Source: a virus. From it: a stretch of DNA of 64,000 bases. The notes under the pieces are model-generated. The model was not told the DNA's origin. It worked only from the letters and a program-made list of their open reading frames with translations, and did no database searches. The stretch covers positions 38,337 to 102,336 of IMG/VR virus record IMGVR_UViG_3300034105_004543; one strand, 5' to 3'. The number at the start of each line of letters is the position of its first letter. The stretch's first letter is position 1. A program made the position numbers and the translations under genes. Positions 9,681-42,340 of this stretch are shown piece by piece.

Positions 9681-9692
9681 ATAGATATAATT

Positions 9693-14539: not shown

Positions 14540-15196
14540 ATGGTATTTAGTATTAAAAATCTTTTTTCGTCAAAAAATAAAAAACAGAAAAGAATGAATT
14601 TAGCTGAAATTAAAACTGTGGATGAAATAAGAGCCATATATGGTAATATGGAATTTCAATGGATTAAAGGTGATAATATGGGATCGATTGAATCTTATAA
14701 GAATGTTACCTCAATCGGTGAAGATTATTTTATTGAATTTACCAGTGGAAAAAGGATGAACATTAATCTGTTAGATGAGTTTTTAATGTATTATCCAGCT
14801 CCGCCTAAGCAAGATTTAGGTCTAAGAGCCGAATTTACTGAGGTTATGAGTAAGCCATCCAGTGTAACATCAATAGTATACAGTGATGCTTATCCTATAA
14901 ACCAATCTGAAGAATCACCGATATATAAGTTACTTAGAAAGCAGAAAAAAAATTCAGTAGAGGTTTCAATAAAGCTCAAATTGAATTTACCATCAAAGGA
15001 ACTTTATAGTGTTTTGTCTAGCTCTTTCGATGATGCAGAGAAGGATATAATAGATTTTGTTCTTTCCGGTGTTGATATAGAAGATATAAAAGCATCACTT
15101 GCTGATTCGATAAGACAATCATATTATGTTTCCGAAAAAAAAGAAACAACAAAATCGGGAAAAAATCAGTTGAATAAAAAAGAAGACGATGAATAA
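14540..15196 (+). CDS. Unknown protein at the head of the tail/baseplate operon
   Basis: This 218-residue protein has a basic N-terminus (SIKNLFSSKNKKQKR) and then a mixed alpha/beta core. Visible strands include EDYFIEFTSGKRMNINLLDE near 63-82 and SVEVSIKLKLNLP near 140-152. The acidic-basic tail is probably disordered. It is the first gene after the terminator at 14453, yet no GATATATA element precedes it; the ATG follows AAAAATAAATAAA. Its end overlaps the Nudix gene by 8 nt. No family is recognised. It could be a tail-assembly or connector protein, judging from what follows. Confidence 0.5.
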   Translation: MVFSIKNLFSSKNKKQKRMNLAEIKTVDEIRAIYGNMEFQWIKGDNMGSIESYKNVTSIGEDYFIEFTSGKRMNINLLDEFLMYYPAPPKQDLGLRAEFTEVMSKPSSVTSIVYSDAYPINQSEESPIYKLLRKQKKNSVEVSIKLKLNLPSKELYSVLSSSFDDAEKDIIDFVLSGVDIEDIKASLADSIRQSYYVSEKKETTKSGKNQLNKKEDDE

Positions 15197-15776
15197 AAAA
15201 GAAAAAATACTATTAGAAACACCAAAATTTAAGGTTGTTGAGAGGAATGAAAAACCTGGTGTAGTATCGAGCGTTGAAACGGTTATGATACTGCCGTTTA
15301 TAAGTGATGATCAGGGACTTCCGCTAATGATCGGTGTTCTCAAGGAAGAGAATCTTTTTAGGGAGGGCGGTAATTCTCAAAGCTTAATAACAGGAACCTG
15401 CGAGGATGAGGATCCAGATTATTTGGCAACAGCAAAAAGAGAATTATTAGAGGAATCTGGGTATGATGTTGCTGATAGTAATAAGTGGTATTTTTTAGGA
15501 ACAGTATCCGGAAATAAATTTGTCGACAAGGAATATCCTGCTTTTGCTGTTGATGTTACTGGAATAGAAAAGGGTAAAGCCAAGGGTGATGGATCTAAAC
15601 AAGAAAAGAATGCAGTCTTTCATTTTATACCAGCGAATGATGTTGTGAAAGCAAGGGATATATTTATACCTGGTCTTTTTCTAAAATTGTTTAAATTTGT
15701 AGTTGGTATGGATTTATATAACAGAGAAGATTCAGTTTTTGGTAAACCCAGTGGATTTAGTGAGGTTGAACTTTAG
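15189..15776 (+). CDS. Nudix hydrolase
   Basis: This 195-residue protein has the core Nudix motif RELLEESGY at residues 84-92, preceded by an acidic loop (EDEDPDYLATAK). The upstream Gly-x5-Glu part of the box is imperfect, with Pro where the first Glu is expected. The catalytic helix Glu residues are all present, so metal-dependent hydrolysis of a nucleoside diphosphate derivative is likely; the substrate cannot be told. The opening (TVMILPFISD, then LPLMIGVLKEEN) is the usual first beta strands. It is odd to find it inside a tail operon, overlapping the preceding gene by 8 nt. Phage Nudix enzymes are known to clean nucleotide pools or decap RNA; which applies here is open. Confidence 0.85.
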   Translation: MNKKEKILLETPKFKVVERNEKPGVVSSVETVMILPFISDDQGLPLMIGVLKEENLFREGGNSQSLITGTCEDEDPDYLATAKRELLEESGYDVADSNKWYFLGTVSGNKFVDKEYPAFAVDVTGIEKGKAKGDGSKQEKNAVFHFIPANDVVKARDIFIPGLFLKLFKFVVGMDLYNREDSVFGKPSGFSEVEL

Positions 15777-15788
15777 CATTTAATTTTT

Positions 15789-16079
15789 ATGAGCAACAGA
15801 AAAGAAAGAAGACATATTTTAAGATCTATGGGACTTTTGAATGTATCTAAAAATGATCCATTTAATAATAAGCTTAAACTCGAGGAGGGTAAGAATAAAC
15901 ATAGAATACATTTACAGAGAATTAAAAACGAACAAATAAAGAAGGAAAATAGAGGAGATTCGAGTGATGATTTCTTTATATATAGACAGCAGGAATCCGA
16001 ATATTCTTCATTTCGATCCATGTTGATCGAAAGAGATTGGAATAACCTGGAATCAAATGATGATAATGCAGGAAATTAA
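15789..16079 (+). CDS. Small basic protein, unknown
   Basis: This 96-residue protein is strongly basic in its first 60 residues (NRKERRHILRSMGLL, then KNKHRIHLQRIKNEQIKK) and acidic afterwards. One long helix is likely. Its 3' end overlaps the next start by 23 nt. It has no motif or membrane segment. The charge pattern would allow nucleic-acid or scaffold binding, but nothing specific can be concluded. Confidence 0.5.
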   Translation: MSNRKERRHILRSMGLLNVSKNDPFNNKLKLEEGKNKHRIHLQRIKNEQIKKENRGDSSDDFFIYRQQESEYSSFRSMLIERDWNNLESNDDNAGN

Positions 16080-16392
16080 AGTAAATTTTTATTTATCAAA
16101 ATATTCACCAAAGGAAGCCAAGAAAAGATCCACCATCGGATCTGATTTTTATGTTGTTGATATATCAAAAATTATAAGGGATCTTGGCTATGAACTTGAT
16201 AATCTTACCAGTGAATCAGAGTTCGTGATAAACTACACTATTCGAAAGAAAATACTACAAGGAATATATAGTACAAAGTGTGATGGTATACTTGTGTGCT
16301 ATAAGAATATAAATCAGGATTTTATAGAGAATCTTGAGAATCTACTAGACGAACACCCAGAAGAAATACAGTATACCATTCACGATCTTTAA
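16057..16392 (+). CDS. Small protein, unknown
   Basis: This 111-residue protein appears compact and mixed alpha/beta: VNFYLSKYSPKEAKKRS, SDFYVVDISKIIRDLGYELD, CDGILVCYKNINQDFIENLE. In-frame ATG codons at 16057, 16060 and 16066 are all possible. The last gives the shortest overlap (14 nt) and a start MQEIKVNFYLSK directly on the first strand. The strand-helix alternation could be a small assembly chaperone or tail-terminator-like fold, but I do not recognise a family. It ends 16 nt before the next structural gene. Confidence 0.5.
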   Translation: MMIMQEIKVNFYLSKYSPKEAKKRSTIGSDFYVVDISKIIRDLGYELDNLTSESEFVINYTIRKKILQGIYSTKCDGILVCYKNINQDFIENLENLLDEHPEEIQYTIHDL

Positions 16393-16408
16393 AAAAGATT
16401 AGTGATAT

Positions 16409-18259
16409 ATGAATCCAATATTTAACAGCGGAGCTAGCGCTCCTTCTCTAGAGGAATTAAGAGGTAAGGGTGTAGTAAATGACATTGTACAAAAATGGAG
16501 TAATTTAGGTTCCGGCAATATATTTAAGGGTCCTACCGCAAGGACCCTTTTCTACGAGGCGGGAAAGAGAAAACCCGGTAAATATGGACAATTTCTATTT
16601 TATTCGCTGGGAAATCACGAGAACAACTTTATTGATGCCTATTATAGATCTGAAAATAGACAATATAATAGATCAATATCTTCGAAAAAATCCAAAAATC
16701 CATCTGCTGGTTTTCTAGTAAGAGAAACCTCTGCTCTTGAAGCTGTGTCTGTCAATTGTAATAGTATATTTAGCGGATTCACAACAAATTTCGAAAAAAA
16801 CATAGTTGGTGGCATGGCAGCTCCGTATTACTGGAAGGATTTCCTTTTCTGTAAGTATTATGCAACAATACCGAATAACTATATGCTAACATTAAGAAGA
16901 TTCCCAACACCAGTTCTCGATAATCTTTCTGTTCCAGCCGCTCTTAAATCATCATCAGCTTATAATGCGGAGGGTGTAGGTAGACCTGTTGCGCAAGCTG
17001 TAACTTGGTTTGGTGGTAATACCGGTAATAAATTAAATGATATTATTCAATTTAGTACTGGTATAAAATGGAAATCAAAGGAACAGTCAGCTGAAGTTAT
17101 ACAGCAAGCTATGTCCCAGGGTTTTCTAGATGATACCAGTAGAATTTTTGGAGATATTTTTGGTGGTCTTGGTGATGGCGCTGAAATAAGAAATACTAAA
17201 GCACTTCTTAATGCAGCTGTCATAGCGTCTGATCCAAATAATACTAGTGTTGCTAATACTAAGTTTATGAAGTTTAGAGATTTGATGAAGAATGGTGAGA
17301 AAAATGCTGGTCTTCTTAGTGAATACATATGGACATCCGTAGATGTAGTAAACAAAACTAATATTAGGGATATTGGTCTACCGTTCACCTGGGGAGCTGG
17401 AGACGGTATAACGGTTACTTTTGAATATGATCTAACTTCAGTTGGAGAGGTAAACACAAAAGCTTCCATGCTGGATATAATAGGTAATCTATTAAGTATT
17501 GGAACAAATTACGGATCTTTTTTAACCCCCGATTTTAGATACAATTCTAATTTTCCAGCTTTTGGTTTTCCTGGTGGTAGCAGAGGACTTGAAATGTTCT
17601 ATAGAGACCCAATACAATTTGTTCTTGATTATGCAGAAGAGCTAGTAAATCCAGCATCCAGCGCCAAGACATCAGCTGATATTAATAAAGGTTCCTTTGG
17701 CGATAATAACGATATATCTAAATTAAAGAATGCTCTCGAAACTGTTACCAAAAACAACGGGAATCCTGCTGCCGCTATAGAGGCTATAAAAAAAGAATTT
17801 GGCGGAGCTGCTGGGAGATTATTACAAACTACATTTACGCCAGGATTTTTTGAACAATATCAATTTCCTGCCAGTTTGTTGACGGGAGCTCCTATTGGTG
17901 AATGGCATCTTGTTGTTGGTAATCCATGTAACCCTATAGCAATGATAGGTAATCTTATATGCGAAAAAGTGAAAATAGATTTTGGCGAAGCATTGGGACC
18001 CGATGATTTTCCAACCTCAGTTAAAGCAGTATTCAGCTTGAAACACGGTAGGGATAGGGAAAGAGGTGAGATAGAGAGTATATTTAATAGAGGTGACGGT
18101 AGATTATATCAATCATCTATGCCGACAACAGCCAATGCACAGTCTTACGATGCTATTTCAACGGTTGACGGAAGAACATTAAAAAATGCAGTGTCCGACA
18201 TTTTCGATCAGAGAGCATATGGTGGATTCTCTAGTGATCAAACATCTCCAGGTAGATAA
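16409..18259 (+). CDS. Tail or baseplate structural protein, unknown class
   Basis: This 616-residue protein lacks enzyme motifs and is rich in Gly, Asn and aromatic residues. Apparently conserved segments are PYYWKDFLFCKYYATIPNNY (about 135-155) and a C-terminal block with GEWHLVVGNPCNPIAMIGNL, GPDDFPTSVKA and RGEIESIFNRGDGRLY (about 490-575). The last block has the look of a tail-tube or baseplate protein that packs against identical subunits. It opens the run of baseplate genes (LysM/gp53-like, hub-like, spike). A tube-initiator role such as T4 gp48 or gp54 is possible from position, but there is no direct sequence match I can see. Confidence 0.6.
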   Translation: MNPIFNSGASAPSLEELRGKGVVNDIVQKWSNLGSGNIFKGPTARTLFYEAGKRKPGKYGQFLFYSLGNHENNFIDAYYRSENRQYNRSISSKKSKNPSAGFLVRETSALEAVSVNCNSIFSGFTTNFEKNIVGGMAAPYYWKDFLFCKYYATIPNNYMLTLRRFPTPVLDNLSVPAALKSSSAYNAEGVGRPVAQAVTWFGGNTGNKLNDIIQFSTGIKWKSKEQSAEVIQQAMSQGFLDDTSRIFGDIFGGLGDGAEIRNTKALLNAAVIASDPNNTSVANTKFMKFRDLMKNGEKNAGLLSEYIWTSVDVVNKTNIRDIGLPFTWGAGDGITVTFEYDLTSVGEVNTKASMLDIIGNLLSIGTNYGSFLTPDFRYNSNFPAFGFPGGSRGLEMFYRDPIQFVLDYAEELVNPASSAKTSADINKGSFGDNNDISKLKNALETVTKNNGNPAAAIEAIKKEFGGAAGRLLQTTFTPGFFEQYQFPASLLTGAPIGEWHLVVGNPCNPIAMIGNLICEKVKIDFGEALGPDDFPTSVKAVFSLKHGRDRERGEIESIFNRGDGRLYQSSMPTTANAQSYDAISTVDGRTLKNAVSDIFDQRAYGGFSSDQTSPGR

Positions 18260-20427: not shown

Positions 20428-22875
20428 TTGGGAGCAACAGATAAAGAGAGAAGTTTATTTCTAAAAGGATTTAAACTTTCTAAGCAAGGTCAATATGAAG
20501 ATCCAACATATTTAGGATTTAAGATTGTTATAGATTTTGGAAATCTACCTATAAATGGCGAGGACGGATTACCTCCTAGTCCACTCTTTAGAGAAACAAG
20601 TTATAATAACGATAGAGGTAATGATTTCTTTGGTAGGAATCCATTTGGACAGGAACAATACGATTTTAGGACCCAAACAAATACCTCTTTCTATAGTGCT
20701 ATAAGCTATTTGGAGGAGAGAGAAGCTGACTTTAGCAATTCTGGTGGTAAAAGAGCGGATATGTTAAAGCAATTCAAAAACACATTCAATGATTTATTAA
20801 CAAATTCCCCTTGGTTTATACAATCGATAACTGGTCTGGATGAGCTTATGAAGGTTCCTAGAGGTGGATATCAAACGCAATCCGAGACATCATCGGTATT
20901 TAATGTTCAAAGAACAATGGGCAAAACCTTAACTTTTAATACTTTGGAATCTATGAATCTTAGGGTAACAGCTATGGCAGACCTTTATAACCAAGCAACT
21001 TTCGATTATGATTTTATGCGTGAACTTGTACCAAGGAATCTTAGAAAATTTACGATGTACATATTTGTTTCTGAGATAAGAAACTTCTTTAAGACCTCGA
21101 GATTACTAGGGTCATCAACAGCTTTAACAGCACTAGACGGCTTATCTTCCCTGCTGGCTTCTGGTAATAACCCAGGAACCAATATCGCTTCTTCAACCAA
21201 CGTCGCTCAAGAACAAAATAAAACTTTTAGTAATGGTGGTCCAGGTAATATAAATCCTGCCAGTCCTTTTAACGCCTTCGTTGGTAATATATTTAATCAA
21301 GCTGGACTTGATAATGATTTTTCTTTATTGAAAAATCAACAGGACCAATCTGGTATAAAGCCTATGCTTGTTTTTGAATGTAAAAATTGTGAATTTGACT
21401 TCAGTGAAAGTACACCCATACAGAATCAATTGTATGCTGGTACCAATCAAGGTAGTGCCACTCCAGAAGCACAGAAGTTTAAAATACATGTTGGTAAAGT
21501 GAGAATGAGAAACCAATATCCTAATATAAGATCGGACGGTAAACCATTAATCCTTGGTGATAGCTGGGATTCCGCTAGATCATCCGTCCAAAAATCTCCT
21601 CCCGCTGACATAAATGATATATTAAGTGTAGGTGGTGAATTACTAACAAATTTTGTAAGTAATTCATTGAATGACCTTATAAATGAAGGTGTTACAAATC
21701 TTGCTAAAAATTTGGAGGGAATAGATAAGGCAATTTTAGGTAATGCATATAGTTTCAACCCAAGCGAGCTTTTGTCAAATCTTTCATTCAACAGTGCTCA
21801 GGATTTTCTTTCCCAACTAGGAGGAGCAAATATAGGAATAACCAAAACAACACTACCGAATCCGCAATCGATGGGTCTTGGTGGTCCTCCAAATAGGGTT
21901 TATAATTCACCCTCTGGTGATGCTTATCCAAAATCACCCGGAGGTGATCTTGGTCTTCCGCAAAGAATCTATAATGCACCTTCCGATGATGCTTATCCAA
22001 AATCACCTGGTGATGACCTTGGTCTTCCGCAGAGAGTTTACCCAGCTCCTGTTGGAGATGTATATTCAGAATCACCTGGACCTGATTTAGGTTTGCCCGA
22101 TAGAATCTATCCTGCTCCTGTAGGTGACGAATACCCAACATCACCAGGATCTGATCTTGGATCTCCGGATAGAATCTATCCGCCAACGACAGGTGACGAA
22201 TACCCAACATCACCAGGATCTGATCTTGGATCTCCGGATAGAATCTATCCGCCAACGACAGGTGACGAATACCCAACATCACCAGGATCTGATTTAGGTG
22301 CACCTGATAGGACATATCCGCCAACGACAGGAGACGAATACCCAACATCACCAGGATCTGATCTTGGATCTCCAGATAGAATCTATCCGCCAACGACGGG
22401 TGACGAGTATATTAAATCACCAGGACCCGATTTAGGTGCACCTTCACGAATATACAAATCTCCAAGTGGTGATGAATACCCAGGATCACCAGGACCTGAC
22501 TTAGGTTTACCCGGTAGAATTTATAAGAATGCTTCTGGCGATGAATACGTGGGATCACCAGGACCTGATTTAGGTTTACCCAACAGATCATATGAAGGTG
22601 TAAATGAAAATGTGTACCCGAATCAAGGGGTTGTTTCCGCTAATGGAAGATTGATAAACGAGAATAATAGTTTTCAACAATCACCAGGAAGTGTTTATAC
22701 TTCACCACCGATAAACACAAACCCAATATCAAGGGGAGATATGGGTAAAATATATCCACCCACAAGCGGGGACTTTTCTTTAGAAACACCACTAAATCTC
22801 GGGAACCTAAAGCCACATACTAAATATAATATAAGTACTGATGGATTTAATGGTGATATAAATGATTTTGAATAA
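20428..22875 (+). CDS. Baseplate/tail protein with ten tandem 23-residue repeats
   Basis: This is an 815-residue protein. Residues 1-480 are a globular structural part (LKGFKLSKQGQYEDPTYLGF at the start, RNLRKFTMYIFVSEIRNFF near 205, PMLVFECKNCEFDFSES near 312). Residues 490-719 are ten Pro/Gly/Asp-rich tandem repeats; a polar Asn/Pro-rich tail follows. The start is unusual: a stop codon lies at 20419-20421 in this frame and the only reasonable start before the conserved segment is TTG at 20428, since the first downstream ATG is about 110 codons in. The gene lies between the hub-like and spike genes, so the product is probably part of the central baseplate. The repeat tail could wrap or tether partner subunits; this is inference. 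Confidence 0.7.
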   Translation: MGATDKERSLFLKGFKLSKQGQYEDPTYLGFKIVIDFGNLPINGEDGLPPSPLFRETSYNNDRGNDFFGRNPFGQEQYDFRTQTNTSFYSAISYLEEREADFSNSGGKRADMLKQFKNTFNDLLTNSPWFIQSITGLDELMKVPRGGYQTQSETSSVFNVQRTMGKTLTFNTLESMNLRVTAMADLYNQATFDYDFMRELVPRNLRKFTMYIFVSEIRNFFKTSRLLGSSTALTALDGLSSLLASGNNPGTNIASSTNVAQEQNKTFSNGGPGNINPASPFNAFVGNIFNQAGLDNDFSLLKNQQDQSGIKPMLVFECKNCEFDFSESTPIQNQLYAGTNQGSATPEAQKFKIHVGKVRMRNQYPNIRSDGKPLILGDSWDSARSSVQKSPPADINDILSVGGELLTNFVSNSLNDLINEGVTNLAKNLEGIDKAILGNAYSFNPSELLSNLSFNSAQDFLSQLGGANIGITKTTLPNPQSMGLGGPPNRVYNSPSGDAYPKSPGGDLGLPQRIYNAPSDDAYPKSPGDDLGLPQRVYPAPVGDVYSESPGPDLGLPDRIYPAPVGDEYPTSPGSDLGSPDRIYPPTTGDEYPTSPGSDLGSPDRIYPPTTGDEYPTSPGSDLGAPDRTYPPTTGDEYPTSPGSDLGSPDRIYPPTTGDEYIKSPGPDLGAPSRIYKSPSGDEYPGSPGPDLGLPGRIYKNASGDEYVGSPGPDLGLPNRSYEGVNENVYPNQGVVSANGRLINENNSFQQSPGSVYTSPPINTNPISRGDMGKIYPPTSGDFSLETPLNLGNLKPHTKYNISTDGFNGDINDFE
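21895..22584 (+). repeat. Ten tandem 69-bp repeats (23 aa each)
   Basis: Units start at 21895, 21964, 22033 and every 69 nt to 22516. The consensus is R-I-Y-P-P-T-T-G-D-E-Y-P-T-S-P-G-S-D-L-G-S-P-D. Units 4-8 (from 22102) are nearly identical in DNA, the outer ones diverged. The core SPG-x-DLG-x-P is kept in all ten. The phase is exactly in frame. Confidence 0.95.
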
Positions 22876-30712: not shown

Positions 30713-32437
30713 ATGAATATATTTAAAAAAAATAATATACTTATAGATGGATTATTAGGTGATACCTTTGCATTCCTTCAGAGCACGTATAATCAGACAG
30801 CTAATGTCTTTACTGTTGCATCAGCATGGGGACAGATACTTTTTGTTCTGCAGAATCTCTCACAGCTTATACTTTATTTTATAGAAGATTCGATAACCGA
30901 ATTAAATATTCAGCAAGCAACCAGGGATTATTCGGTTAGAAGTTTGGCTAGAATTGCGGGTTATGATCCAGGTAGAGCATCAGCAGCTCAGGGTGAAGTT
31001 TCTATTTCGTGGAATACCAGGGATGGAGATGTTAGTGGTGGTGCTGTTATAATAAAGAATAATTCACAGATAAGATGCTTGCAAAATGGTAAAATATATT
31101 CTCTTAGATTTGGTAGTAACGAAATTACTATCCCATTGGTAAGAGGAAACTCCATATCCGCTAAGATAGTTCAAGGAAATTTCGAGAGCGCGACCCTTAC
31201 CGGGGGTGGTACAGCTTTGCAAAGCTTCAATCTGCCATCAACTGCAGGAGCATACATAGATCAATTTTATATAGATGTTTATGTCAACGAGGAAAAATGG
31301 AGAAGATATGATTCACTTTATGATATACCTCTTAATGGGAAGGGATATTTAATTAGAAGCGGTATTCAGGAGGGTATAGATCTTTATTTTGGTAATTCTA
31401 ATTTTGGTATGGTCCCACAACCAGGATCAATGATAAGAGTTGAATACCTACAAACTAGTGGCATAAGTGGTAATAGTAATTCAACAAAGGAAACCCCTCT
31501 CACTTACAAATTTGTAACATCAGGAACGGATCTTTTTGGCGGCGAAGTTGATTTGAATTTATACATAGACATTAAAAACAATATAGATCCCACCTTTGGT
31601 ACCAACCCCGAAAGTATATCACTTATAAGGTTGGTTGCTCCAAAAACTAGTAGATCTTTTGTTTTTGCAAGACCTGAAAATTATGAGATATTCTTAACTA
31701 AATTTGGTGTATTTTCTCAAATCCAGGCATTTTCAACATTTGATGATGATTATCTCGATGATGATAACATAGTTTATCTTTATTTAGTACCCGATATAAC
31801 TCTAAATTTAACAACTAACGAGGATTATTTTAGTGTTCCTTATGCTAACTTTCTCCTAACTGCACAACAGAAAACAAAAATATTAAATCTGATACAGGAT
31901 ACGGGATCGATGATAGCAACCACAGTCGTGAAGATAGTTGAACCAGTTATAGCAAGATATGTTATTAATATTATTATATCAATTTTTGAAGGTAATGACC
32001 CAGAGACTATAAAGCAGTCCATTAGGAAGGGAATTTCTGATTATATGTTAAATAATAAAAGGAGAGATAAAATACCTAAATCTGATTTTATAGCTCTTAT
32101 TGAGGGAATAGATGGTGTTGATTCAGTTTCACTTTTCTTCATAGGCCAGAAAAATGAGGAGAATCAAATAGCAATTAAAAATCTTACTAATGTTAGTAAT
32201 GCACAATATGAAGAGATTATAGGAATGGATAGTTTTGGCGATATAATTATAGGTAGAAACGAACTAGTTATACTAAGAGGAGGATGGGATGATAGAAACG
32301 GAACATCTTTCACTGAGGGTGTAGTAGCAGGTAAGCCTGGACCACTTAATATAACTGTTGCTTCCCTAGTCCCTAGAAATTTTAGAAGCGAATTGACAGC
32401 TGATTTAAAAACTAGATTAGCCGCTCAAAATAAATAA
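30713..32437 (+). CDS. 6: Baseplate wedge protein gp6-like (baseplate J family)
   Basis: This is a 574-residue protein. N-terminal helices (TYNQTANVFTVASAWGQILF) lead to the conserved baseplate-J region: SVRSLARIAGYDPGRASAAQ, then GEVSISW and later YLIRSGIQEGIDLYFGNSNF, equivalent to the G-(x)-FG(D/N) segment of gp6/gpJ proteins. The C-terminal half alternates helices and strands. Length and position directly after gp25 agree with T4 gp6 (660 residues), which forms the wedge ring. It ends 5 nt before the next gene. Confidence is high for the superfamily, lower for strict orthology. Confidence 0.78.
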   Translation: MNIFKKNNILIDGLLGDTFAFLQSTYNQTANVFTVASAWGQILFVLQNLSQLILYFIEDSITELNIQQATRDYSVRSLARIAGYDPGRASAAQGEVSISWNTRDGDVSGGAVIIKNNSQIRCLQNGKIYSLRFGSNEITIPLVRGNSISAKIVQGNFESATLTGGGTALQSFNLPSTAGAYIDQFYIDVYVNEEKWRRYDSLYDIPLNGKGYLIRSGIQEGIDLYFGNSNFGMVPQPGSMIRVEYLQTSGISGNSNSTKETPLTYKFVTSGTDLFGGEVDLNLYIDIKNNIDPTFGTNPESISLIRLVAPKTSRSFVFARPENYEIFLTKFGVFSQIQAFSTFDDDYLDDDNIVYLYLVPDITLNLTTNEDYFSVPYANFLLTAQQKTKILNLIQDTGSMIATTVVKIVEPVIARYVINIIISIFEGNDPETIKQSIRKGISDYMLNNKRRDKIPKSDFIALIEGIDGVDSVSLFFIGQKNEENQIAIKNLTNVSNAQYEEIIGMDSFGDIIIGRNELVILRGGWDDRNGTSFTEGVVAGKPGPLNITVASLVPRNFRSELTADLKTRLAAQNK

Positions 32438-32979: not shown

Positions 32980-35900
32980 ATGGCAAATCTAAATCTTAAT
33001 TTTTATAATAAAAACGGTAATCCATTAAATTTTGATTACATAGGAGCAACCGGTCCAACCCCTCTTGATACCAAGTTTTCTCATATCTTAGGTGCTTCCG
33101 CATCTACGTCTGGTTATTTTCAATGGAGTGAAACATCCGATGATTATTCGCTGGTTTTTAATATAGCTGATGTAAATAGTACGGATCTTTATAAATGGTG
33201 TTTAGAAGTAAATGATTTTATAAATAAAGGTGCAACTGTTTATCTCAATGGTTATATAGCAGTTGCTAATACAAACTTTAAAGGTAAAATCACAAGCGTT
33301 AGTAATATTGGTTCAACCTTTACTATTACCTTACCCAAGAGTTATTTTCTTGGTCAGAATATAATAAGCTATGACACCCAAATTTATTTCGAGGGAACAT
33401 ACGATAACAGACCTGGCGGGTACTTTAAAGGTAATATCTATTTTGATCCGATATCAACTGGTCTCTATGAGAACCAGCAGGTTTTTGTGGTGCAAGAATT
33501 TATAAATGGTTCTGGCGATGTTGAATATGGTCTTCCACACACCTCGAATATTGGTTTAACCGGTGCAAGATGGAGAACTAGATGGTATAATAATAATTAT
33601 GGTGATGTTGATGTTTCTGAGATTATATTCACTTATGCGATAGAGGATCAGTTAAGTGGTGGGGAGGGTCAACCTTTAATTATCAGTTATCCAAATATGG
33701 CTATTCCTGTTGGATCTTCTGTGGGAGATTCCTATTCCAATGGATTAATTGTTACTAGCAATATTGAATCTGATGCTATAGCAATAAACGTAGCACTAAA
33801 TTCACCGGATGATCTGGATAATGTTTATGAGAGGAAACTTATCATTGAAGACATAACAACAGATACTCCACAGAAAGTTATAGAAATTGATTTCTATGGA
33901 CAGACCGTTGCGGAGGACGAAAGATTTAAGGTTCTTCTTGAAAATATAGGAAGATCATTTTATAACAGTGACTCTATCATACTAAGAGATCATGATCCGG
34001 CTGAACCTGTTCCAAATTTCGTGGAAATCAACGAAAAGAGAAAAGAATTGCTTATAGCAGGTGATGAAATATTTCCCTATATTGGTAGCTATAAGGGTCT
34101 TATTAATGCTCTTAAGTTCTTTGGGTACCAGGACATGAGGATAAAGGAGTATTGGTTAAATCTAAACTATAAAAATCTAAAATTAGAATCACCATTACAA
34201 CAAAACCAAACCTTTCTTAATAAGATAAAGAGTGGAGAATCTAAAAATGGATATTCGCAATCGTATAACGTTGGCGATGTTTTGGATAATGAAAATTCCG
34301 GGAAATATAAGCTTATACAGACTTATGGTCCCGATGGTGATGGAAATTATGTGCTTAATGTCACTTCCGAAAATACACAACTACCTAGTAAATCCATTAA
34401 AAAAACATCTCTATTTGGACTTTATTATGATCTGAATAAGGTTACCGGTGACATTGACGAATATGGGTATCCTATTGTTACTGATGCTTTTAAATTTACG
34501 CAGGAGGAGATATTAATAAAAATATTTGCTTTAAAGGAAAGACTTAAAAGAGATTATCTGCCATTAAATGCCAGAATAATTGACATAACTGGGGAAGGTG
34601 TTTATTTCATGATACAGAATACAAAATCATGGACAGATCAGATGATAAGATCTGATATAAACATAGGGTATGATTTCGATTTTTTTCCTAATCCCGATTT
34701 TGGTTTTATTGAGGATCTTAGAAATTTTAACATAAGACCAAATTCCAATTATATACAAACTCCAAGTTCCTATGACAATTCATATGAACTGGATGTTAGT
34801 TTTCCTGGTGGAACCGGAAGTGCCATTAGATTTTCTGGTAGTATACCATATGGTATCACTGGAGACAATCCCACTATAAAATTAGAAGCTGGTAAAACAT
34901 ATAATTTCAAAGTTAATGATTCATCCGGATATGGACTGGATTTTAATATAACAAACTATGCGGAATTTCCTAACAATCAGCAATTATGGAATTCTAATGT
35001 GCCATCGGGTATAATTAATAACGGAGCTACTGGCGGTAGTTCCCTGGAGTGGTATATAGCTCCTGGTGCTACTGGCACAATCCATTATTATTCAAATAAT
35101 AATCCGGTTTCTTTATCCGGCAGTGTTGAAATAATACCTGCCACATTATCGGACCTTGGTAATATAGTGAATCCCCTGGATTTTCAACAAAATTATACAC
35201 CTGCTCAAAACGAATCCCTATTGTTGGCTATTGATAAATTTTATAATCTAAAGCAAAATGGCAAGATAGTGGAGCTGGGTGATGATAGATTTGATTCACC
35301 TGAATATATCGATCCGTTAACTGGAATTCCGTACGAAACCCCTGTTGGTATGCCAATAATTCTTGAATTATCGACAGATAGATGGGAATGGAATGAATTA
35401 AATATAGATTGGGATGCACTGCTGATACCAACGTATAGACCTGGGGATAGAGTTAAGGTTAAATCGACAGGCATATTTGGTACCGTTAGAGTTGTCTATT
35501 ATAGCACCGGCGAATATGAGATAGCATTAGATAATTCAACGACAGCAATTTTCGGCGAGACTGAGCTTTTTTCAACAGTTCAGAATTACACCATATTAAA
35601 CTGGAAGAATGTTGATTTCTCTAATATGGTGGAAATTGAATGGCTGCTAAATAAATCTGCAACCCAACCGGGTACTCCATATAATTTCGCATTTAGAGGG
35701 TCTATAGTGGACTATTATAAACTTGCCCACTTCTTACCTTACACTGGGGAATATCAGGTTATATGTAACACCTATGATGCTTTTAATACGAAAACCACAG
35801 TTATTAAGAATGCATCAATATTTGTAGATCCTAAAACCATTGATATAGATTCATGGACAAGATACAGGGAGGTTGAGAATTATCTATGGGACAATGTGGA

Positions 35901-38475
35901 TCGGGAATGGAAGGAATATGAATCCATATGGGAGTACCCAGCGGAGGGATCAACAATAGACACTCTTAGAAAAACTATACCTACTGAGATACTTGACTTT
36001 GCAACATATGGAAATAAGGCCGATGACGGTCAGGATCTATTGGTTAGAACCACAGAGTCACCAACTGGAGCTTATGGCACCATAATATTGAATCAGGAAA
36101 TTCTTGTAGTTTCTAGTGTAATATCGAATCAGATCACGATTGGCCAGTACGGGTATGCAATAGTCACAACAACAACCCCACACTCTTTACAAAATGGTGA
36201 TAATGCAACATTAACTGGAAGTATACCAGAGATCAATGGTAGATGGCCAGTAACAGTTACTGGTGCGTCATCTTTCTATATACCAGTTACCCTCAGTTAT
36301 GCATGGTCCGGTGTTTTATTAGAAATGACACCAATAAACTATCTGTATGTTGATATCTCCATATACACATCTCAGGAAATTCTAAGTATCGGATCAATAT
36401 CCATTTATGTTAATAATAGACTGATTGGAAATAGTAAAACCGGCGACACTTTATATAACACAGCAAATGAGATAACGTCATCTATAAATTCTCTTAGAAC
36501 ATATCCGGATTACTTTGCATCGTGCGAGAATCCACAGGAAAATCCAGTGACAATCACAATATATGCACCGGGTGAGCTTGGAGCGGAACAAAATGGTGTG
36601 CCTTTGAGGGTTGAAGAAACCGGATCTGTAAATGTCATTTCATATTCACCAGTTTTAAGCGGCGGTATTAATTCTAGTGATTATTATGTTTATTGGGACG
36701 AGAACGGCGAGAATTATCCAAACCCAAATCTTAAATATTGGGGAACGAAGAGATTAAATTGGCAGATATTTAATGATAGTACATGGGATAATGGCTATGC
36801 CCATTCTTGGTATGATTATGAGTTTAATAACGATTGGTTGGGTGGATATGAATTACATTCAATTGTAGCAAACGATAAACTTAGAATTTCCACTGGTAAT
36901 GAGACTTATCCATTTCCAAGCACTCTAACTTTTTCTGGTGGTTATAATCTAACCTTATCGGAAGCAGCAGCACAGCTTAATGCTGCTGATTCACATATAA
37001 CAAATTTTTACTATAGAGTAATTCCAGACGATACAGGTTCGTTGCTAACAGTAAATGGTCCAATGAATATCGATATGGGTAATTCGATATTGAATAATGG
37101 ACCATATCCACCGCCTCCATCATTGATCGGGGGAAGTCCATTACTTGTGGTTGATTTTGGTTATGCCGGGGGATCTCCTGTTACAACATCAACGACAACA
37201 ACAAGTACAACAAGTACAACAACAACGACAACCACGACAGCTGCTCCTACAACAAGTACCACCACCACAACAACATTACCTACGACTTATAGTTATCAAG
37301 CAATTATTTATGATTGTGTGACATGTACTCCTACTGGAAGCAATGTTAGCTTTACGAATGGTGAATTATTAACTGTAGGTAAATGGTATGCATGGGAAAA
37401 TTACTCAACTGGAATTTATTATAAAATCTTAATTGATGTTTATAATGGTACAATTGGAGGTACTCCTAATGCGATACTATATGATGTAGATAAGAAAGAT
37501 ACCTGTGCGGAGGTAGTCTGTACGGATTGCGCATTTGCTGGGGGTACCGCTGTTTTTGTACCTGCAACCACAACCACAACAAGTACTACTAGCACAACAA
37601 CAACCACAACAATACCGGTTCCTGTTTCTAGTAAATATGGAGATACTGCAAATAACCCAAGATTTATGGTTATGGATTCCTCTGGTAATCTTTATGTAAC
37701 AACTTCTTATTCAAATATTATAACAAAAATAACACCTGGAGGTGTATCAAGTACTTTTGCAACAGTGGGAACTGGTCAGCAGGGTCCGATGGGAATTACT
37801 ATTGACCCTTCAAATAATCTCTATGTTGCAAATGAATTTGCAAGTACTGTTTCAAAAATAACACCTGCTGGTGTAGTTACTATTTTTGCAACTACTGGAT
37901 CTGGTCCATGGGGAATTGTTAGGGATCGTTTTGGGTATTTTTATACTTCAAATAGTAATGCAAATAGTGTTACGAAAATAACTCCGGGAGGGGCTTCTAG
38001 TCAATACGGAGGCACGATAGGAGCTGCTCCCCGTGGAATTGTTATTGATTACGATGGTAATGTCTATGTAGCATGTCAGGGTTCAAATTCAGTTTGGAAA
38101 ATTACACCTACTGGAACTACTTCTAAATTAGCAGATACCGGAATTAGTCCAAATGGAATTGTTATGGATTCATCGGGTAATATTTATACTGCAAATACAG
38201 GATCTGATAATGTTACAAAAATAACGCCTGCGGGTGCAGTTACTACTCCTTTTGCAACTACTGGCGATGCGCCAATTTCGATTGCTATTGATCCTTCGGG
38301 TAATCTTTATACTTCAAATTATGGATCTAATAATGTTTCAAAAATTACTACATCAGGGGTATCTACAATATTAGGAACTACTGGAAATAATCCATATGGA
38401 ATTTTTCTTGATCCTTTGAATAATGTATATACAGCGAATTTGAATTCGAACACAGTAACAAAAATAACAGTTTAA
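32980..38475 (+). CDS. Giant gp7-like baseplate protein with poly-Thr linkers and a seven-bladed beta-propeller
   Basis: This is a 1831-residue protein. The first ~550 residues are baseplate-like. A block near residues 305-385 (ERFKVLLENIGRSFYNSD, YKGLINALKFFGYQDMRIKE) belongs to the large wedge protein found beside gp6 in T4-like phages (gp7-like). Ig/PKD-like and SH3-like strand domains follow (RVKVKSTGIFGTVRVVYYST near 825). From about residue 1402 there is a Thr/Ser tract, a roughly 90-residue Cys-containing domain (CVTC, CAEVVCTDC), a second Thr tract, and seven repeats of the form (P-x-G-I-x-x-D-x-x-G-N-x-Y-x-x-N ... V-x-K-I-T), a propeller of the NHL/Vgb-like type. The propeller end is unlike any T4 wedge protein and is probably a displayed adhesin domain. 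Confidence 0.78.
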   Translation: MANLNLNFYNKNGNPLNFDYIGATGPTPLDTKFSHILGASASTSGYFQWSETSDDYSLVFNIADVNSTDLYKWCLEVNDFINKGATVYLNGYIAVANTNFKGKITSVSNIGSTFTITLPKSYFLGQNIISYDTQIYFEGTYDNRPGGYFKGNIYFDPISTGLYENQQVFVVQEFINGSGDVEYGLPHTSNIGLTGARWRTRWYNNNYGDVDVSEIIFTYAIEDQLSGGEGQPLIISYPNMAIPVGSSVGDSYSNGLIVTSNIESDAIAINVALNSPDDLDNVYERKLIIEDITTDTPQKVIEIDFYGQTVAEDERFKVLLENIGRSFYNSDSIILRDHDPAEPVPNFVEINEKRKELLIAGDEIFPYIGSYKGLINALKFFGYQDMRIKEYWLNLNYKNLKLESPLQQNQTFLNKIKSGESKNGYSQSYNVGDVLDNENSGKYKLIQTYGPDGDGNYVLNVTSENTQLPSKSIKKTSLFGLYYDLNKVTGDIDEYGYPIVTDAFKFTQEEILIKIFALKERLKRDYLPLNARIIDITGEGVYFMIQNTKSWTDQMIRSDINIGYDFDFFPNPDFGFIEDLRNFNIRPNSNYIQTPSSYDNSYELDVSFPGGTGSAIRFSGSIPYGITGDNPTIKLEAGKTYNFKVNDSSGYGLDFNITNYAEFPNNQQLWNSNVPSGIINNGATGGSSLEWYIAPGATGTIHYYSNNNPVSLSGSVEIIPATLSDLGNIVNPLDFQQNYTPAQNESLLLAIDKFYNLKQNGKIVELGDDRFDSPEYIDPLTGIPYETPVGMPIILELSTDRWEWNELNIDWDALLIPTYRPGDRVKVKSTGIFGTVRVVYYSTGEYEIALDNSTTAIFGETELFSTVQNYTILNWKNVDFSNMVEIEWLLNKSATQPGTPYNFAFRGSIVDYYKLAHFLPYTGEYQVICNTYDAFNTKTTVIKNASIFVDPKTIDIDSWTRYREVENYLWDNVDREWKEYESIWEYPAEGSTIDTLRKTIPTEILDFATYGNKADDGQDLLVRTTESPTGAYGTIILNQEILVVSSVISNQITIGQYGYAIVTTTTPHSLQNGDNATLTGSIPEINGRWPVTVTGASSFYIPVTLSYAWSGVLLEMTPINYLYVDISIYTSQEILSIGSISIYVNNRLIGNSKTGDTLYNTANEITSSINSLRTYPDYFASCENPQENPVTITIYAPGELGAEQNGVPLRVEETGSVNVISYSPVLSGGINSSDYYVYWDENGENYPNPNLKYWGTKRLNWQIFNDSTWDNGYAHSWYDYEFNNDWLGGYELHSIVANDKLRISTGNETYPFPSTLTFSGGYNLTLSEAAAQLNAADSHITNFYYRVIPDDTGSLLTVNGPMNIDMGNSILNNGPYPPPPSLIGGSPLLVVDFGYAGGSPVTTSTTTTSTTSTTTTTTTTAAPTTSTTTTTTLPTTYSYQAIIYDCVTCTPTGSNVSFTNGELLTVGKWYAWENYSTGIYYKILIDVYNGTIGGTPNAILYDVDKKDTCAEVVCTDCAFAGGTAVFVPATTTTTSTTSTTTTTTIPVPVSSKYGDTANNPRFMVMDSSGNLYVTTSYSNIITKITPGGVSSTFATVGTGQQGPMGITIDPSNNLYVANEFASTVSKITPAGVVTIFATTGSGPWGIVRDRFGYFYTSNSNANSVTKITPGGASSQYGGTIGAAPRGIVIDYDGNVYVACQGSNSVWKITPTGTTSKLADTGISPNGIVMDSSGNIYTANTGSDNVTKITPAGAVTTPFATTGDAPISIAIDPSGNLYTSNYGSNNVSKITTSGVSTILGTTGNNPYGIFLDPLNNVYTANLNSNTVTKITV
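37183..37287 (+). repeat. Poly-Thr/Ser coding tract 1
   Basis: Runs of ACA, ACG, ACC and AGT codons give about 35 residues that are nearly all Thr with some Ser, broken by AAP and LP. It joins the baseplate body to the Cys-containing domain. The DNA resembles the tracts at 37567 and 38826. Confidence 0.93.
37567..37611 (+). repeat. Poly-Thr/Ser coding tract 2
   Basis: Fifteen Thr/Ser codons between the Cys-containing domain and the beta-propeller. It is probably an extended linker. Confidence 0.9.
37642..38475 (+). repeat. Seven beta-propeller repeats (NHL/Vgb-like)
   Basis: Seven units of about 40 residues each contain a G-I-x-x-D-x-x-G/N-N-x-Y segment and end in x-K-I-T-(P/T)-x-G. By hand count, Ile is ATT about twice as often as ATA here, whereas ATA leads in the first 800 nt of the gene. 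That hints at a separate origin. Confidence 0.85.
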
Positions 38476-38609: not shown

Positions 38610-39368
38610 ATGAAAACAACTCTTGTAACAATAAATACCCCAGGCATAACAACTGGACCAACTTTCGATATATTTTCCAATGTGGATCTTATTATACCGC
38701 TGGTTTCTGGTGTGGCAAAAAGTTCACTCCTTTCTGGTTACAGTGTAACGAATGTACCTGATGCAGCCACTAGCATCAGAGTTCAATCTATAGGAACATG
38801 CACAACATATGTAGATCTCTCTATAACAACACCAACTACCACCACAACTAGTACCACCACTAGTACAACTACCACCAGTACAACTACCACAAGTACAACA
38901 ACGATTTTATCCTGGCCATCGGCATTATTTTCGTTTTATTATGCTACTGGGGGAATAAACAATTGGGAAATTTATGGATACAGCGATCAATCTTCACCGA
39001 TAAATATTCTCGGCGGTGGTCAGGATTTTGGTTCATTAGCAGTCCCAACGGACCCTGCATTTAATAATTTCGAAGTTGTTACATTTCAGTGGTACGGAGA
39101 AACGTGGGCAGGACCTGGCTATAGAAATACAGTTGTTACACTCACAATAAAAGGTGCAACATCTGAACCTACAGGTTGGTCTAATATAACAGTTAATTAC
39201 GCTGGAACAATAACAACACTACCTAGAATAGGACCTAATACCGTAGTTCAAATATACAATGAGCAGGATGGTTTTGGAATTTATAATAATTATGTTACAT
39301 GGAGATGGACCAATGTTACTCCTATACCTTTTGGATATAACTGGTCAGTTACTGTTGATGTTAACTAG
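38610..39368 (+). CDS. Tail-fibre/adhesin-like protein with poly-Thr linker
   Basis: This is a 252-residue protein. Residues 1-72 form a small strand domain (TTGPTFDIFSNVDLIIPLVS, then SVTNVPDAATSIRVQS). A poly-Thr/Ser tract lies at about 73-98. The C-terminal 150 residues are strand-rich (NNFEVVTFQWYGETWAGPGY, VTWRWTNVTPIPFGYNWSVT) and probably a carbohydrate-binding-like or fibre-tip domain. The layout, short head domain then Thr linker then globular tip, parallels the 3' end of the preceding giant protein. A 134-nt gap upstream has no GATATATA and no clear hairpin, so promoter and terminator are unclear. The start follows AAATATAAAATAA. Confidence 0.6.
   Translation: MKTTLVTINTPGITTGPTFDIFSNVDLIIPLVSGVAKSSLLSGYSVTNVPDAATSIRVQSIGTCTTYVDLSITTPTTTTTSTTTSTTTTSTTTTSTTTILSWPSALFSFYYATGGINNWEIYGYSDQSSPINILGGGQDFGSLAVPTDPAFNNFEVVTFQWYGETWAGPGYRNTVVTLTIKGATSEPTGWSNITVNYAGTITTLPRIGPNTVVQIYNEQDGFGIYNNYVTWRWTNVTPIPFGYNWSVTVDVN
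38826..38903 (+). repeat. Poly-Thr/Ser coding tract 3
   Basis: Twenty-six Thr/Ser/Pro codons, mainly ACC, ACA, ACT and AGT, form a third linker in a second gene. Similar DNA in 37183-37287 could allow recombination between the two genes. Confidence 0.92.
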
Positions 39369-39483
39369 TATAATTATGAATATGATAGAATAAAAAAATA
39401 AATCATTCAGGTTTTGATTGTAATTTCATATACACGAAACAATAAATATTCATCATTCTATAACTTTTAAATATTTTTAACCT

Positions 39484-40446
39484 ATGCTGAATAAGGTCGT
39501 TTTCATTTGTGCTCAACCCGATGTTCCATATTTTCATTGGCAGGTTGAGGTTTTCATACATAATGCTATGAAAAATGGCATAAATCCCAATTGGATTGAG
39601 ATTGTATTTGGTTATGATGCTTCACCATCTGCGGAGGGTATGGCTCTTGCTGGAAGATACCCATATGTTAGAGTTTTCTTTTATAAGCAGGATAAAATTG
39701 AAAATTATGGATATATCCCAGTACTGAGGCCAAACATCCTCTCCAAGCATTTCGATGTTTATCCTGAACTTACCAATGAGAATATATTTTATCATGATTC
39801 TGATATTATATTCAGGGAGCTTCCTGATTTTGATCTTTTAACAAATGATGATGTCTGGTATCTTAGTGATACTGTTTCTTATATAGGATCAAATTATATA
39901 AAAAGTAAATCTGAGGATCTATTTATGGATATGTGCAATATTGCTGGTATTGATCCTGTAATCGTTTCTAAAAATAATCAAAATTCCGGAGGTGCTCAGT
40001 ATTTAATGAAAGGAATAGATAGTGAATTTTGGAAGGAAGTTGAATTTCTATCTCTTGATCTTTATAAATATATGAGCGATAGAGAATCCTCGGAGAGATC
40101 CAATATGCATGCAGCGGATATTGCTTCATATAATCCAATTCAAAAATGGTGTGCAGATATGTGGGCTGTTTTTTGGTGCGGATTAAAGAGAGGTAATACC
40201 ATTAGAATATCGGATGAACTTGGGTTTAGTTGGGGTTCATTCCACGGGAGAAGCGAATGGGAAAGGCATAAAATTATGCATAATGCTGGAGTTGTCGATA
40301 ACGGGAATGGTAAATTTTTCTATAAAGGAGAATTTATAAACAAGTCACCATGGGAAGCGGATTTTAGTCAAATTGATCCACATCACAATTCATACAACTA
40401 CGTTCAAGCAATATTGTATGCTAAGGAAAGAAGGAATCTTCCATAG
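39484..40446 (+). CDS. Putative GT-A glycosyltransferase
   Basis: This is a 320-residue protein. The start (VVFICAQPDVPYFHWQVEVF) is a first strand and helix of a nucleotide-sugar-binding fold. NIFYHDSDIIF (100-110) places a DxD-type motif, DSD, at the end of a strand, as in GT-A enzymes that bind a metal and UDP-sugar. NSGGAQYLMKGI (167-178) and WCADMWAVFWCGLKRG near 223-238 match the acceptor side of enzymes that copy this layout. Similar blocks occur in plant-type peptide O-glycosyltransferases (HPAT/serine galactosyltransferase-like), but resemblance is modest. It has no signal peptide or membrane anchor, so it should act in the host cytoplasm. It lies between a poly-Thr fibre gene and another adhesin gene; modifying those virion proteins is a reasonable but untested idea. 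Confidence 0.65.
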   Translation: MLNKVVFICAQPDVPYFHWQVEVFIHNAMKNGINPNWIEIVFGYDASPSAEGMALAGRYPYVRVFFYKQDKIENYGYIPVLRPNILSKHFDVYPELTNENIFYHDSDIIFRELPDFDLLTNDDVWYLSDTVSYIGSNYIKSKSEDLFMDMCNIAGIDPVIVSKNNQNSGGAQYLMKGIDSEFWKEVEFLSLDLYKYMSDRESSERSNMHAADIASYNPIQKWCADMWAVFWCGLKRGNTIRISDELGFSWGSFHGRSEWERHKIMHNAGVVDNGNGKFFYKGEFINKSPWEADFSQIDPHHNSYNYVQAILYAKERRNLP

Positions 40447-40467
40447 TTTTTGTGTCGATTTTTTTTA

Positions 40468-40475
40468 GATATATA
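40468..40475 (+). promoter_or_regulatory. Candidate late promoter GATATATA
   Basis: GATATATA lies 20 nt before the ATG at 40496, after the glycosyltransferase gene. It would drive the two large adhesin genes that follow. Confidence 0.55.
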
Positions 40476-40495
40476 ATCTGAATAAAAATCTATAA

Positions 40496-42340
40496 ATGGC
40501 AGATGTACAATTAGGCATAAATCAGGGAGATCGTATATATTATTATGATCTTAGTCAAGGAGGTGTATCCAGACAATGGACATTCCAGGGTGGTACGCCA
40601 GCTACTGGTGCTGCATATGGACCTGATATTATGTACTATGGAGTTAACTACAGTGGATACGACACTGGTTTAGTCGTAACTGGGGCAGGTGGATTAACTG
40701 CGGAAGCTTACAAATCCGGTATAGTGGTTGTTTATCCCGAGATATTTGATCCATCTATGCTGATAACTACAGGAATTCCAGTTGATGTTGTAAGTAGATC
40801 ATCTCTGGGTAAAACCCTCACTTATGGGGTGACTGGAACTGTGAGTAGTGGAATAGATTTGTATAGCTGGACAATACCACAATTGGGGCCAAGTAATTCT
40901 CCAACTGTGGATTTTACTTATAATGATTGGTATTTATTAACTGGTACATATTTAGGAAGCCCAAATTCATCCTATATTACAAATGTTACCGCTGGTGTTG
41001 TATCTGTAGTTGGTAACGAGACACTATTAACCAAACAAATAGATTTTAGAAAAATCGGGGTTACAGAGAGTGTTAATTACTGGTCTCCTGGTACTTATGC
41101 AACCTCAGGTAAATATTATGATTGTTCAGTTATGCCACAGAGAACCTCCGCTTTAGGGCTCGGCGGAAACTCTCTTGTAATTAAGATAGATTTTAGCCAG
41201 TATTCCCCTAGATGGAATAATACAAGTTTTCATTCGACGCAGGAGGCAGTATATCTATTACCAAATAGTCCGGATCTATCCAAGACATATTCACCAATAA
41301 AAACAAATATTATTTTGAATGGCGATGTACTTGTTAATATTGGTGCAACGGGAGGATATTCTACTCAGCCCGGAGTTATGCTAGGAAATTATATAATACC
41401 TAATGATATAGCATCCAGATTTGCAAGCAAATTTTTTATAACTGACCAGTCTTTAGGCGGTGTGATAACTGCATTGGTGGATGGTAATAGAAAATGGAAT
41501 AATAATGCCGTATCCGATTTTATGGAAAATAAGTATTATCTTTCAGGTTCTAGTAAATTTATAGAATTAGGTGGATTCTACCAAACTGCACTAGATGGTG
41601 CTACTGTTAATTTACCCAATGTCAATCTTGCCTCTGGGATGGGATTTATGAATGAAAGTGGAAATTATACCTGGGACGGCGGATGGCCAAATGTGGATGG
41701 ACCTCCATTCCCGAGTGAATGGTTTCATGGAGTTTCTATACCTTCCAGTCGTCTTTTGTATGATCTATATAATTATACAGTTAATATTGATGTCAGATTG
41801 AAACTTAGAGATTCTGCTGGATCCATCATAGATGATTTTCAATTTATAATTTCTCCCGTCAACGGGGAAGGAAATACACCAGATTATTTAATGATAACTG
41901 CAAGTGAAACCAGCTACGGTAGCTCCAATGGTTTAGATTATTTAATCAATAGCGGAATAGCCTCCAGGGGAGGAGGATTATCTAACAATATAATATTTGA
42001 AAATAATCAGGATCTTTCTCCTTACAATGACACACCCACTGGACTTTATAATGGATATGGGGCTTTTGGTGCTCTCAAAATGTCAATAATAGATCCCAGA
42101 ACTAGCTCGTCATATTCAAATCGTTATATACATTCACTAGAAATAACTTGGGGAACACAAATGTCCGAATTTTTATTTTATATGGTTGGTGATCAAGTAA
42201 ATTTCCCATCTTTCCCATTTGCATCGGATGTTAATGGACCTACAATATCATGGACTGGATTACCTAGTAAAATAACAGTACCAACATCGTCATATACCAA
42301 TTACTTTAGAGGCTGGTACATAGGCGGTGGATTATCATAA
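40496..42340 (+). CDS. Adhesin or fibre protein with PKD-like domain
   Basis: This 614-residue, strand-rich protein has Gly, Ser, Asn and Tyr in abundance. Residues about 20-80 fit a PKD domain: SRQWTFQGGTPATGAAYGPD, then YYGVNYSGYDTGLVVTGAGG and IVVVYPE. The rest has several lectin-like or fibre-like sandwiches but no named motif (GGFYQTALDGATVNLPNVNL near 360). There is no signal peptide. It follows its own promoter and precedes a propeller-containing protein by 20 nt. It is probably on the virion surface and part of host attachment. Confidence 0.55.
   Translation: MADVQLGINQGDRIYYYDLSQGGVSRQWTFQGGTPATGAAYGPDIMYYGVNYSGYDTGLVVTGAGGLTAEAYKSGIVVVYPEIFDPSMLITTGIPVDVVSRSSLGKTLTYGVTGTVSSGIDLYSWTIPQLGPSNSPTVDFTYNDWYLLTGTYLGSPNSSYITNVTAGVVSVVGNETLLTKQIDFRKIGVTESVNYWSPGTYATSGKYYDCSVMPQRTSALGLGGNSLVIKIDFSQYSPRWNNTSFHSTQEAVYLLPNSPDLSKTYSPIKTNIILNGDVLVNIGATGGYSTQPGVMLGNYIIPNDIASRFASKFFITDQSLGGVITALVDGNRKWNNNAVSDFMENKYYLSGSSKFIELGGFYQTALDGATVNLPNVNLASGMGFMNESGNYTWDGGWPNVDGPPFPSEWFHGVSIPSSRLLYDLYNYTVNIDVRLKLRDSAGSIIDDFQFIISPVNGEGNTPDYLMITASETSYGSSNGLDYLINSGIASRGGGLSNNIIFENNQDLSPYNDTPTGLYNGYGAFGALKMSIIDPRTSSSYSNRYIHSLEITWGTQMSEFLFYMVGDQVNFPSFPFASDVNGPTISWTGLPSKITVPTSSYTNYFRGWYIGGGLS

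Follow-up and report, generated by a model that had tools for sequence, protein, structure and literature searches.

Why should the gene of a putative glycosyltransferase (GT) lie directly behind a gene that encodes a run of threonine and serine residues, and what might such an enzyme modify? The question is raised by a viral DNA stretch of 64,000 nucleotides (referred to below as the window), which corresponds to positions 38337-102336 of the 102,336-base IMG/VR record IMGVR_UViG_3300034105_004543. The comparative analysis reported here indicates that the enzyme is very probably a phage protein O-glycosyltransferase that decorates the poly-Thr tails or linkers of the phage's own virion proteins. 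The GT gene, its conserved site and the two upstream genes with poly-Thr/Ser tracts are located in the window as follows (ORF, open reading frame).

39484..40446, + strand: GT gene, 320 residues (ORF; PHROG 4417 match; GT-A fold)
39796..39804, + strand: DSD (DxD) motif, residues 105-107, predicted metal/nucleotide-sugar site (alignments)
39982..40002, + strand: NSGGAQY motif, residues 167-173 (44-sequence alignment)
40279..40281, + strand: His266 in the HNAG motif, possibly the third metal ligand (invariant in both alignments)
38610..39368, + strand: 252-residue predicted acceptor that contains a poly-Thr/Ser tract in its interior, directly upstream of the GT (ORF)
38835..38903, + strand: poly-Thr/Ser tract TTTTTSTTTSTTTTSTTTTSTTT in the 252-residue gene (tract scan; mixed Thr codons)
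32980..38475, + strand: 1831-residue baseplate-type protein, extended C-terminally by poly-Thr and likewise a predicted acceptor (ORF, gene context)
37183..37275, + strand: poly-Thr/Ser tract 1 of the 1831-residue gene, two runs split by AAP (starts 37183 and 37249), about residues 1402-1432
37567..37611, + strand: poly-Thr/Ser tract 2 of the 1831-residue gene, TTTTTSTTSTTTTTT, about residues 1530-1544
37651..38463, + strand: NHL-repeat/Vgb-lyase-type beta-propeller after the tracts, C terminus of the 1831-residue protein (PF24684, E = 8e-32)

The enzyme and the tracts upstream of it

The product of the GT gene matched the PHROG 4417 profile over its full length (profile positions 3-291 of 293 against residues 7-313, E = 1.1e-62), and this family is annotated as 'unknown function'. 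Searches of Pfam and NCBIfam returned only noise and no GT-family match for any of 31 family members, a PDB sequence search with the window GT revealed no real GT relative, and a fold search was needed for the assignment. An AlphaFold2 model, computed from an alignment of 44 window and IMG/VR sequences, had a mean predicted local distance difference test score (pLDDT) of 95.6 and a predicted TM-score (pTM) of 0.92, and the top 50 matches that Foldseek found for it in the PDB were all enzymes with the Rossmann-like GT-A fold. WbbM, UGGT, Skp1 galactosyltransferase, LARGE1, xyloside xylosyltransferase and glycogenin were matched with probability 1.00, LgtC was also matched, and the nearest fold neighbours were GT8/GT24-type enzymes. 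Three of these (UGGT, Skp1 galactosyltransferase and glycogenin) have proteins or glycoproteins as their substrates. The retaining-type GT-A enzymes, i.e. glycogenin and LgtC of GT8, UGGT of GT24 and Skp1 galactosyltransferase, have the overall fold, the DxD motif and a late His in common with the window GT, but no sequence profile placed the latter in GT8 or in any other named Pfam, NCBIfam or CAZy-type GT family.

Conservation was judged on two alignments (A1 and A2, with 31 and 44 sequences, respectively), in both of which D105, D107, G170, Q172 and H266 were invariant across phages of Bacteroidota, Firmicutes and Arcanobacterium; S168, G169 and A171 were nearly invariant in the 44-sequence alignment. 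The conserved DxD motif and C-terminal His are as expected of an active metal-dependent GT, which the window enzyme is predicted to be, and the role of H266 as a metal ligand is proposed by analogy with GT-A enzymes. The product was assigned as a GT because of its GT-A fold and this conserved site, and the GT-A-like enzyme with DSD and NSGGAQY motifs that the first-pass annotation had read from the DNA was borne out in its reading frame, its motifs and its fold.

That annotation had also placed the GT directly after a poly-Thr gene and close to two more tracts, all attributed to fibre proteins. The arrangement was confirmed, with both additional tracts in the 1831-residue gene, and the fibre label was not, the 1831-residue product being a baseplate-type protein and no proven fibre; a baseplate-wedge-like gene (30713-32437, PHROG 219) precedes it. 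A poly-Thr scan of the whole 102,336-base record detected no tract outside the two genes directly upstream of the GT. The tracts are encoded by mixed Thr codons and therefore do not represent a simple DNA repeat. Pfam and PHROG searches with the 252-residue protein gave no match. In the 1831-residue protein, the poly-Thr linker joins the virginiamycin-B-lyase/NHL-type propeller (37651-38463) to the baseplate-type part, and this propeller might be a receptor- or glycan-binding domain.

Co-variation of the GT with poly-Thr

Homologues of the window GT were detected in 74 phage records, 60 IMG/VR loci, 8 plasmid records and 45 bacterial-genome loci. The phage homologues, 28-41% identical across most of the length, include the 'prophage pi2 protein 34', a hypothetical protein of lactococcal, enterococcal and staphylococcal phages; this protein and PHROG 4417 are the same family as the window GT, and the records and literature searched assign neither a role nor an acceptor to it. 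Poly-Thr, defined as a run of at least six Ser/Thr residues including at least five Thr, was present in 58 of the 60 IMG/VR loci (in 55 within the directly upstream gene), in 12 of 13 annotated GT phages (in 9 immediately upstream) and in 32 of the 45 bacterial-genome loci (in 29 immediately upstream). A random 15-mer control yielded 17 loci, none of them with poly-Thr, and a poly-Ala control set that was added contained poly-Thr in 1 of 120 loci. Compared with both controls, poly-Thr occurs at GT loci far beyond chance.

Among the exceptions, L379 does contain a poly-Thr gene, which had been overlooked by the automatic ORF choice, and L384 encodes a Ser-rich tail. In the Lactobacillus phage SAC12B (L190), the gene that immediately precedes the GT gene (9428-9985) ends in TTVKP/TTVAP repeats; this TTVKPTTVAP repeat tail hints at an enzyme that tolerates Val/Pro spacers. 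In two jumbo-type records (L018 and L059) the GT is unlinked, with poly-Thr about 39 kb away, and the enzyme would therefore act in trans.

A reverse search started from contigs gathered solely by an in-frame run of Thr codons, 50 of which were searched whole. The GT was recovered in 11 of these (E < 1e-84), in most cases as the gene that directly follows the poly-Thr gene, and in none of 50 poly-Ala contigs (Fisher p = 5e-4).

The first-pass annotation had suggested checking whether GT and poly-Thr genes co-occur across related phages, and the co-occurrence turned out to be near-perfect in the window lineage as well as in two Gram-positive families of tail-tube proteins, the three families being unrelated to one another. 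For the window lineage, a close-relative search with the baseplate-type gene gave only phages that carry the GT, and a profile search found homologues without it; when the first 1389 residues of the 1831-residue protein were used, 78 homologues were collected, from which 11 contigs that end too soon were left out. Poly-Thr was present in 20/20 homologues with a GT nearby and in 0/47 without (Fisher 2e-17). In all 20 it forms a C-terminal extension, and most of the GT-less homologues end at about 1340-1490 residues. Bacillaceae-type major tail proteins (set A3) bear a poly-Thr tail in 18/18 cases with the GT versus 0/58 without (p = 8e-18), and phiFL1A-type tail proteins (set A4) in 17/19 versus 1/32 (p = 2e-10); the exceptions in A4 are a cut tail-protein gene (L519), a broken one (L517) and a contig that stops short of the place where the GT would be expected (L489). 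Genes upstream of the tail protein behaved in the same way in two tail-protein sets, with poly-Thr in 18/18 versus 2/44 and in 15/16 versus 1/21, and the poly-Thr gene found there nearly always encodes about 280-410 residues and occupies the major-capsid position. The supported, phylogenetically independent lineage pairs were all concordant (5/5, 2/2 and 4/4; pooled 11/11, two-sided sign test p of about 0.001), and therefore common ancestry does not explain the pattern. Nor does linkage by itself account for the restriction of the tails on several distinct genes to phages with the GT.

In Gram-positive phages, the GT gene directly or nearly directly follows the major capsid gene (in the Lacticaseibacillus phages iLp84 and R3.3, in Lactococcus phage CHPC836 and in VPE25) or the major tail-protein gene (in phiFL1A, PMBT8, RQ1 and TPWB06). 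The predicted capsid protein of CHPC836 ends in ...APTTTTTTQATTTTTSHA and its tail protein in ...STTTTTTTHA, and the tail proteins of VPE25 and phiFL1A end in ...TTTTTTTTTTAGK and ...TTTTSTTTTTTSSTTTTTTTQASSK, respectively. Firmicutes prophages encode similar poly-Thr tails, and six is the commonest length of the pure-Thr run in capsid and tail-protein tails.

A distinct arrangement was observed in RQ1 (Staphylococcus, L187, 9560-9930) and TPWB06 (Arcanobacterium, L191, 9680-9925), where the major tail-protein gene closes with Thr codons and then CCC-TAA and is overlapped by an ORF in the +1 frame that encodes about 55-85 more residues rich in poly-Thr. The arrangement of these codons suggests programmed +1 frameshifting, which would give a minority of the tail subunits a long poly-Thr brush.

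Proposed function and rival explanations

The joint appearance and disappearance of the GT and the Thr stretches in hundreds of bacterial viruses that are not related to each other point to a widespread and largely unrecognised sugar-coating of virions. According to the mechanism that we propose, the GT, made late alongside the structural proteins, would O-glycosylate the Thr and Ser hydroxyls of the tracts in the cytoplasm, either ahead of virion assembly or while it proceeds, with a donor that is probably a UDP-sugar and with a metal ion. In the window, the acceptors would be the 1831-residue baseplate-type protein and the 252-residue protein upstream of the GT, and in Gram-positive phages the C-terminal tails of the major capsid and major tail proteins are predicted to play this part. 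The products would be mucin-like, extended, hydrophilic, protease-resistant, stiffened and sugar-coated tails or linkers on the virion, from which the phage may benefit through stiffening, protease shielding, altered adsorption and, as a secondary role, antibody shielding. The earlier suggestion that the phage glycosylates its own fibre linkers hence gains support from the comparative contrasts as far as self-glycosylation is concerned, and the predicted acceptors extend well beyond fibre linkers. It is also likely, with somewhat less assurance, that a poly-Thr tag and its own peptide-type O-glycosyltransferase constitute a portable module that has passed between phages of Bacteroidota, of Firmicutes and of one actinobacterial host, has been pasted onto capsid, head-tail connector, tail tube and baseplate as mucin-like glycan brushes, and shares ancestry with the GTs of bacterial peptide natural-product clusters.

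Non-phage relatives of the GT in Bacteroidota show 36-40% identity and are mostly longer proteins, and those examined contain a second GT domain, Glyco_transf_7C. The two-domain cousins of Chitinophaga (L346), Deminuibacter (L352) and Spirosoma (L353) are located inside grasp-with-spasm clusters for ribosomally synthesized and post-translationally modified peptides (RiPPs), recognised by TIGR04192 and TIGR04193 above the curated cut-offs. All three loci encode LanC-like proteins, two of them short precursor-like peptides as well, and L353 a peptidase-ABC exporter; a class of glycosylated RiPPs is a possible reading of these clusters. The same GT domain stands here beside peptide maturases and precursor peptides, but it differs from the phage enzyme in being mostly fused to the second GT domain and in lacking phage genes and a poly-Thr acceptor in its surroundings. 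The domain has therefore been found in two contexts, beside Thr-tract virion proteins and in clusters for peptide maturation, and the second context lends independent support to a peptide acceptor. GT homologues with no poly-Thr gene nearby, which the first-pass annotation would have taken as a refutation, were restricted to the two jumbo-type records and the Bacteroidota cousins (three of them shown to lie in RiPP clusters), and neither group contradicts a peptide O-glycosyltransferase. A further two-domain cousin, annotated as 'galactosyltransferase-related protein', is encoded at 15001-16743 of the Rhizosphaericola mali plasmid pB3-10 (L063), a mobilizable plasmid on which it adjoins a recombinase-family gene.

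Several observations weigh against the proposed glycosylation of virion proteins. The Foldseek TM-scores between the window GT and GT8/GT24-type structures were about 0.4-0.5, at 7-14% sequence identity, and because these scores are modest the fold does not reveal the substrate class. In the tail-protein families, the GT and the tails could in part have been inherited as one cassette. A poly-Thr protein is encoded without any GT in the 12.6-kb locus L395, where either the poly-Thr is a remnant or the GT lies elsewhere. In the reverse search, 39 of the 50 poly-Thr contigs lacked the GT, though many of them are fragments, and another GT was found beside the GT-less poly-Thr genes in only 1 of 44 neighbours. 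Because of this last figure, we make no claim of glycosylation for every poly-Thr tract in phages, and because many poly-Thr phages lack the GT, poly-Thr alone should not be read as a sign of glycosylation. At L395, poly-Thr is kept by a gene for about 105 residues, which precedes the tail-protein gene (at 5977) by about 1.2 kb; the tail protein itself lacks poly-Thr.

An enzyme that targets a host surface polymer (in seroconversion or superinfection exclusion) or the phage DNA, and that shares a late-gene cassette with poly-Thr proteins, would fit the physical linkage of the GT to one poly-Thr gene in most loci, and phage GTs with such roles are well known (PMC12619734). We nevertheless consider it unlikely, since the capsid protein, the head-tail protein of about 105 residues and the tail protein gain poly-Thr only with the GT, and the tails persist even though the position of the GT (after the capsid or the tail-protein gene) varies by lineage. 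The unlinked jumbo-type records, which keep poly-Thr, and the three bacterial cousins in peptide-modification clusters also speak against it. The 39 GT-less contigs mentioned above are in turn what would be expected of unmodified linkers, flexible or stiff, that co-occur with the GT through shared ecology or mosaic exchange. This explanation appears very improbable in view of contrasts that are nearly all-or-none, in the window family and A3 as well as in the supported lineage pairs, and of the random and poly-Ala controls, which contained no GT.

The tracts could also be modified by the host, with the phage GT extending the glycan or being unrelated to it, as the first-pass annotation had itself remarked. 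The window phage, whose nearest cultured relative is Chryseobacterium phage MA9V-3, probably infects Bacteroidota, and these bacteria possess a general O-glycosylation system, which is periplasmic and prefers a D-S/T motif. Modification by this system is disfavoured, and to us the most improbable of the three explanations, because the same pairing of GT and poly-Thr holds in Firmicutes phages, and it does so in Arcanobacterium phages as well; we know of no comparable general system in Firmicutes and Arcanobacterium hosts. Moreover, the tracts are uninterrupted runs of Thr and Ser without the Asp of a D-S/T-x motif, the proteins that bear them are assembled in the cytoplasm, and related phages without the GT lose the tracts.

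Comparison with known systems and neighbouring sequences

Virion glycosylation by phage GTs has already been demonstrated in a few mycobacteriophages, and the system proposed here differs from the mycobacteriophage case in its enzyme family and in its poly-Thr tag. Two reports (PMC12619734, PMC12363180) describe GTs encoded by Che8, Corndog and Myrna, which are reported to attach glycans to the C termini of the capsid and tail-tube subunits, and the second mentions antibody shielding by mycobacteriophage virion glycosylation. The likeness lies in the capsid and tail-protein tails that co-vary with the window-type GT and are its predicted glycan sites. Unlike the phages with a window-type GT, Che8 has no poly-Thr at its capsid and tail C termini, and its GT genes are far from the structural genes. 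When the GT family was compared by hhalign with gp108, gp109 and gp110 of Che8, the probability was below 1%, i.e. no profile similarity, and no mycobacteriophage was among the 74 phage records matched by the GT. The literature searched, largely outside subscription journals, contained no description of phage poly-Thr tags or of a function for PHROG 4417, and a prior mention is possible.

If the proposed O-glycosylation of poly-Thr is correct, a family of 'unknown function' that is unrelated to the mycobacteriophage enzymes would be a marker of glycosylated virions in phages of three or more bacterial phyla. The acceptor could then be read from sequence as a poly-Thr tag, which would turn an annotation into a testable prediction of the sugar-bearing virion proteins, and a common low-complexity feature of phage proteins would be explained. 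The enzyme and the tag would provide a compact pair for the sugar labelling of proteins, and the proposed reading also suggests that phage virion glycosylation and the glycosylation of bacterial RiPPs share an enzyme lineage.

Two further features of the window were recorded.

40496..42340: 614-residue ORF, no family match and no demonstrated part in the system
21901-22506: 69-bp unit in tandem, encoding a repeated peptide within an 815-residue ORF

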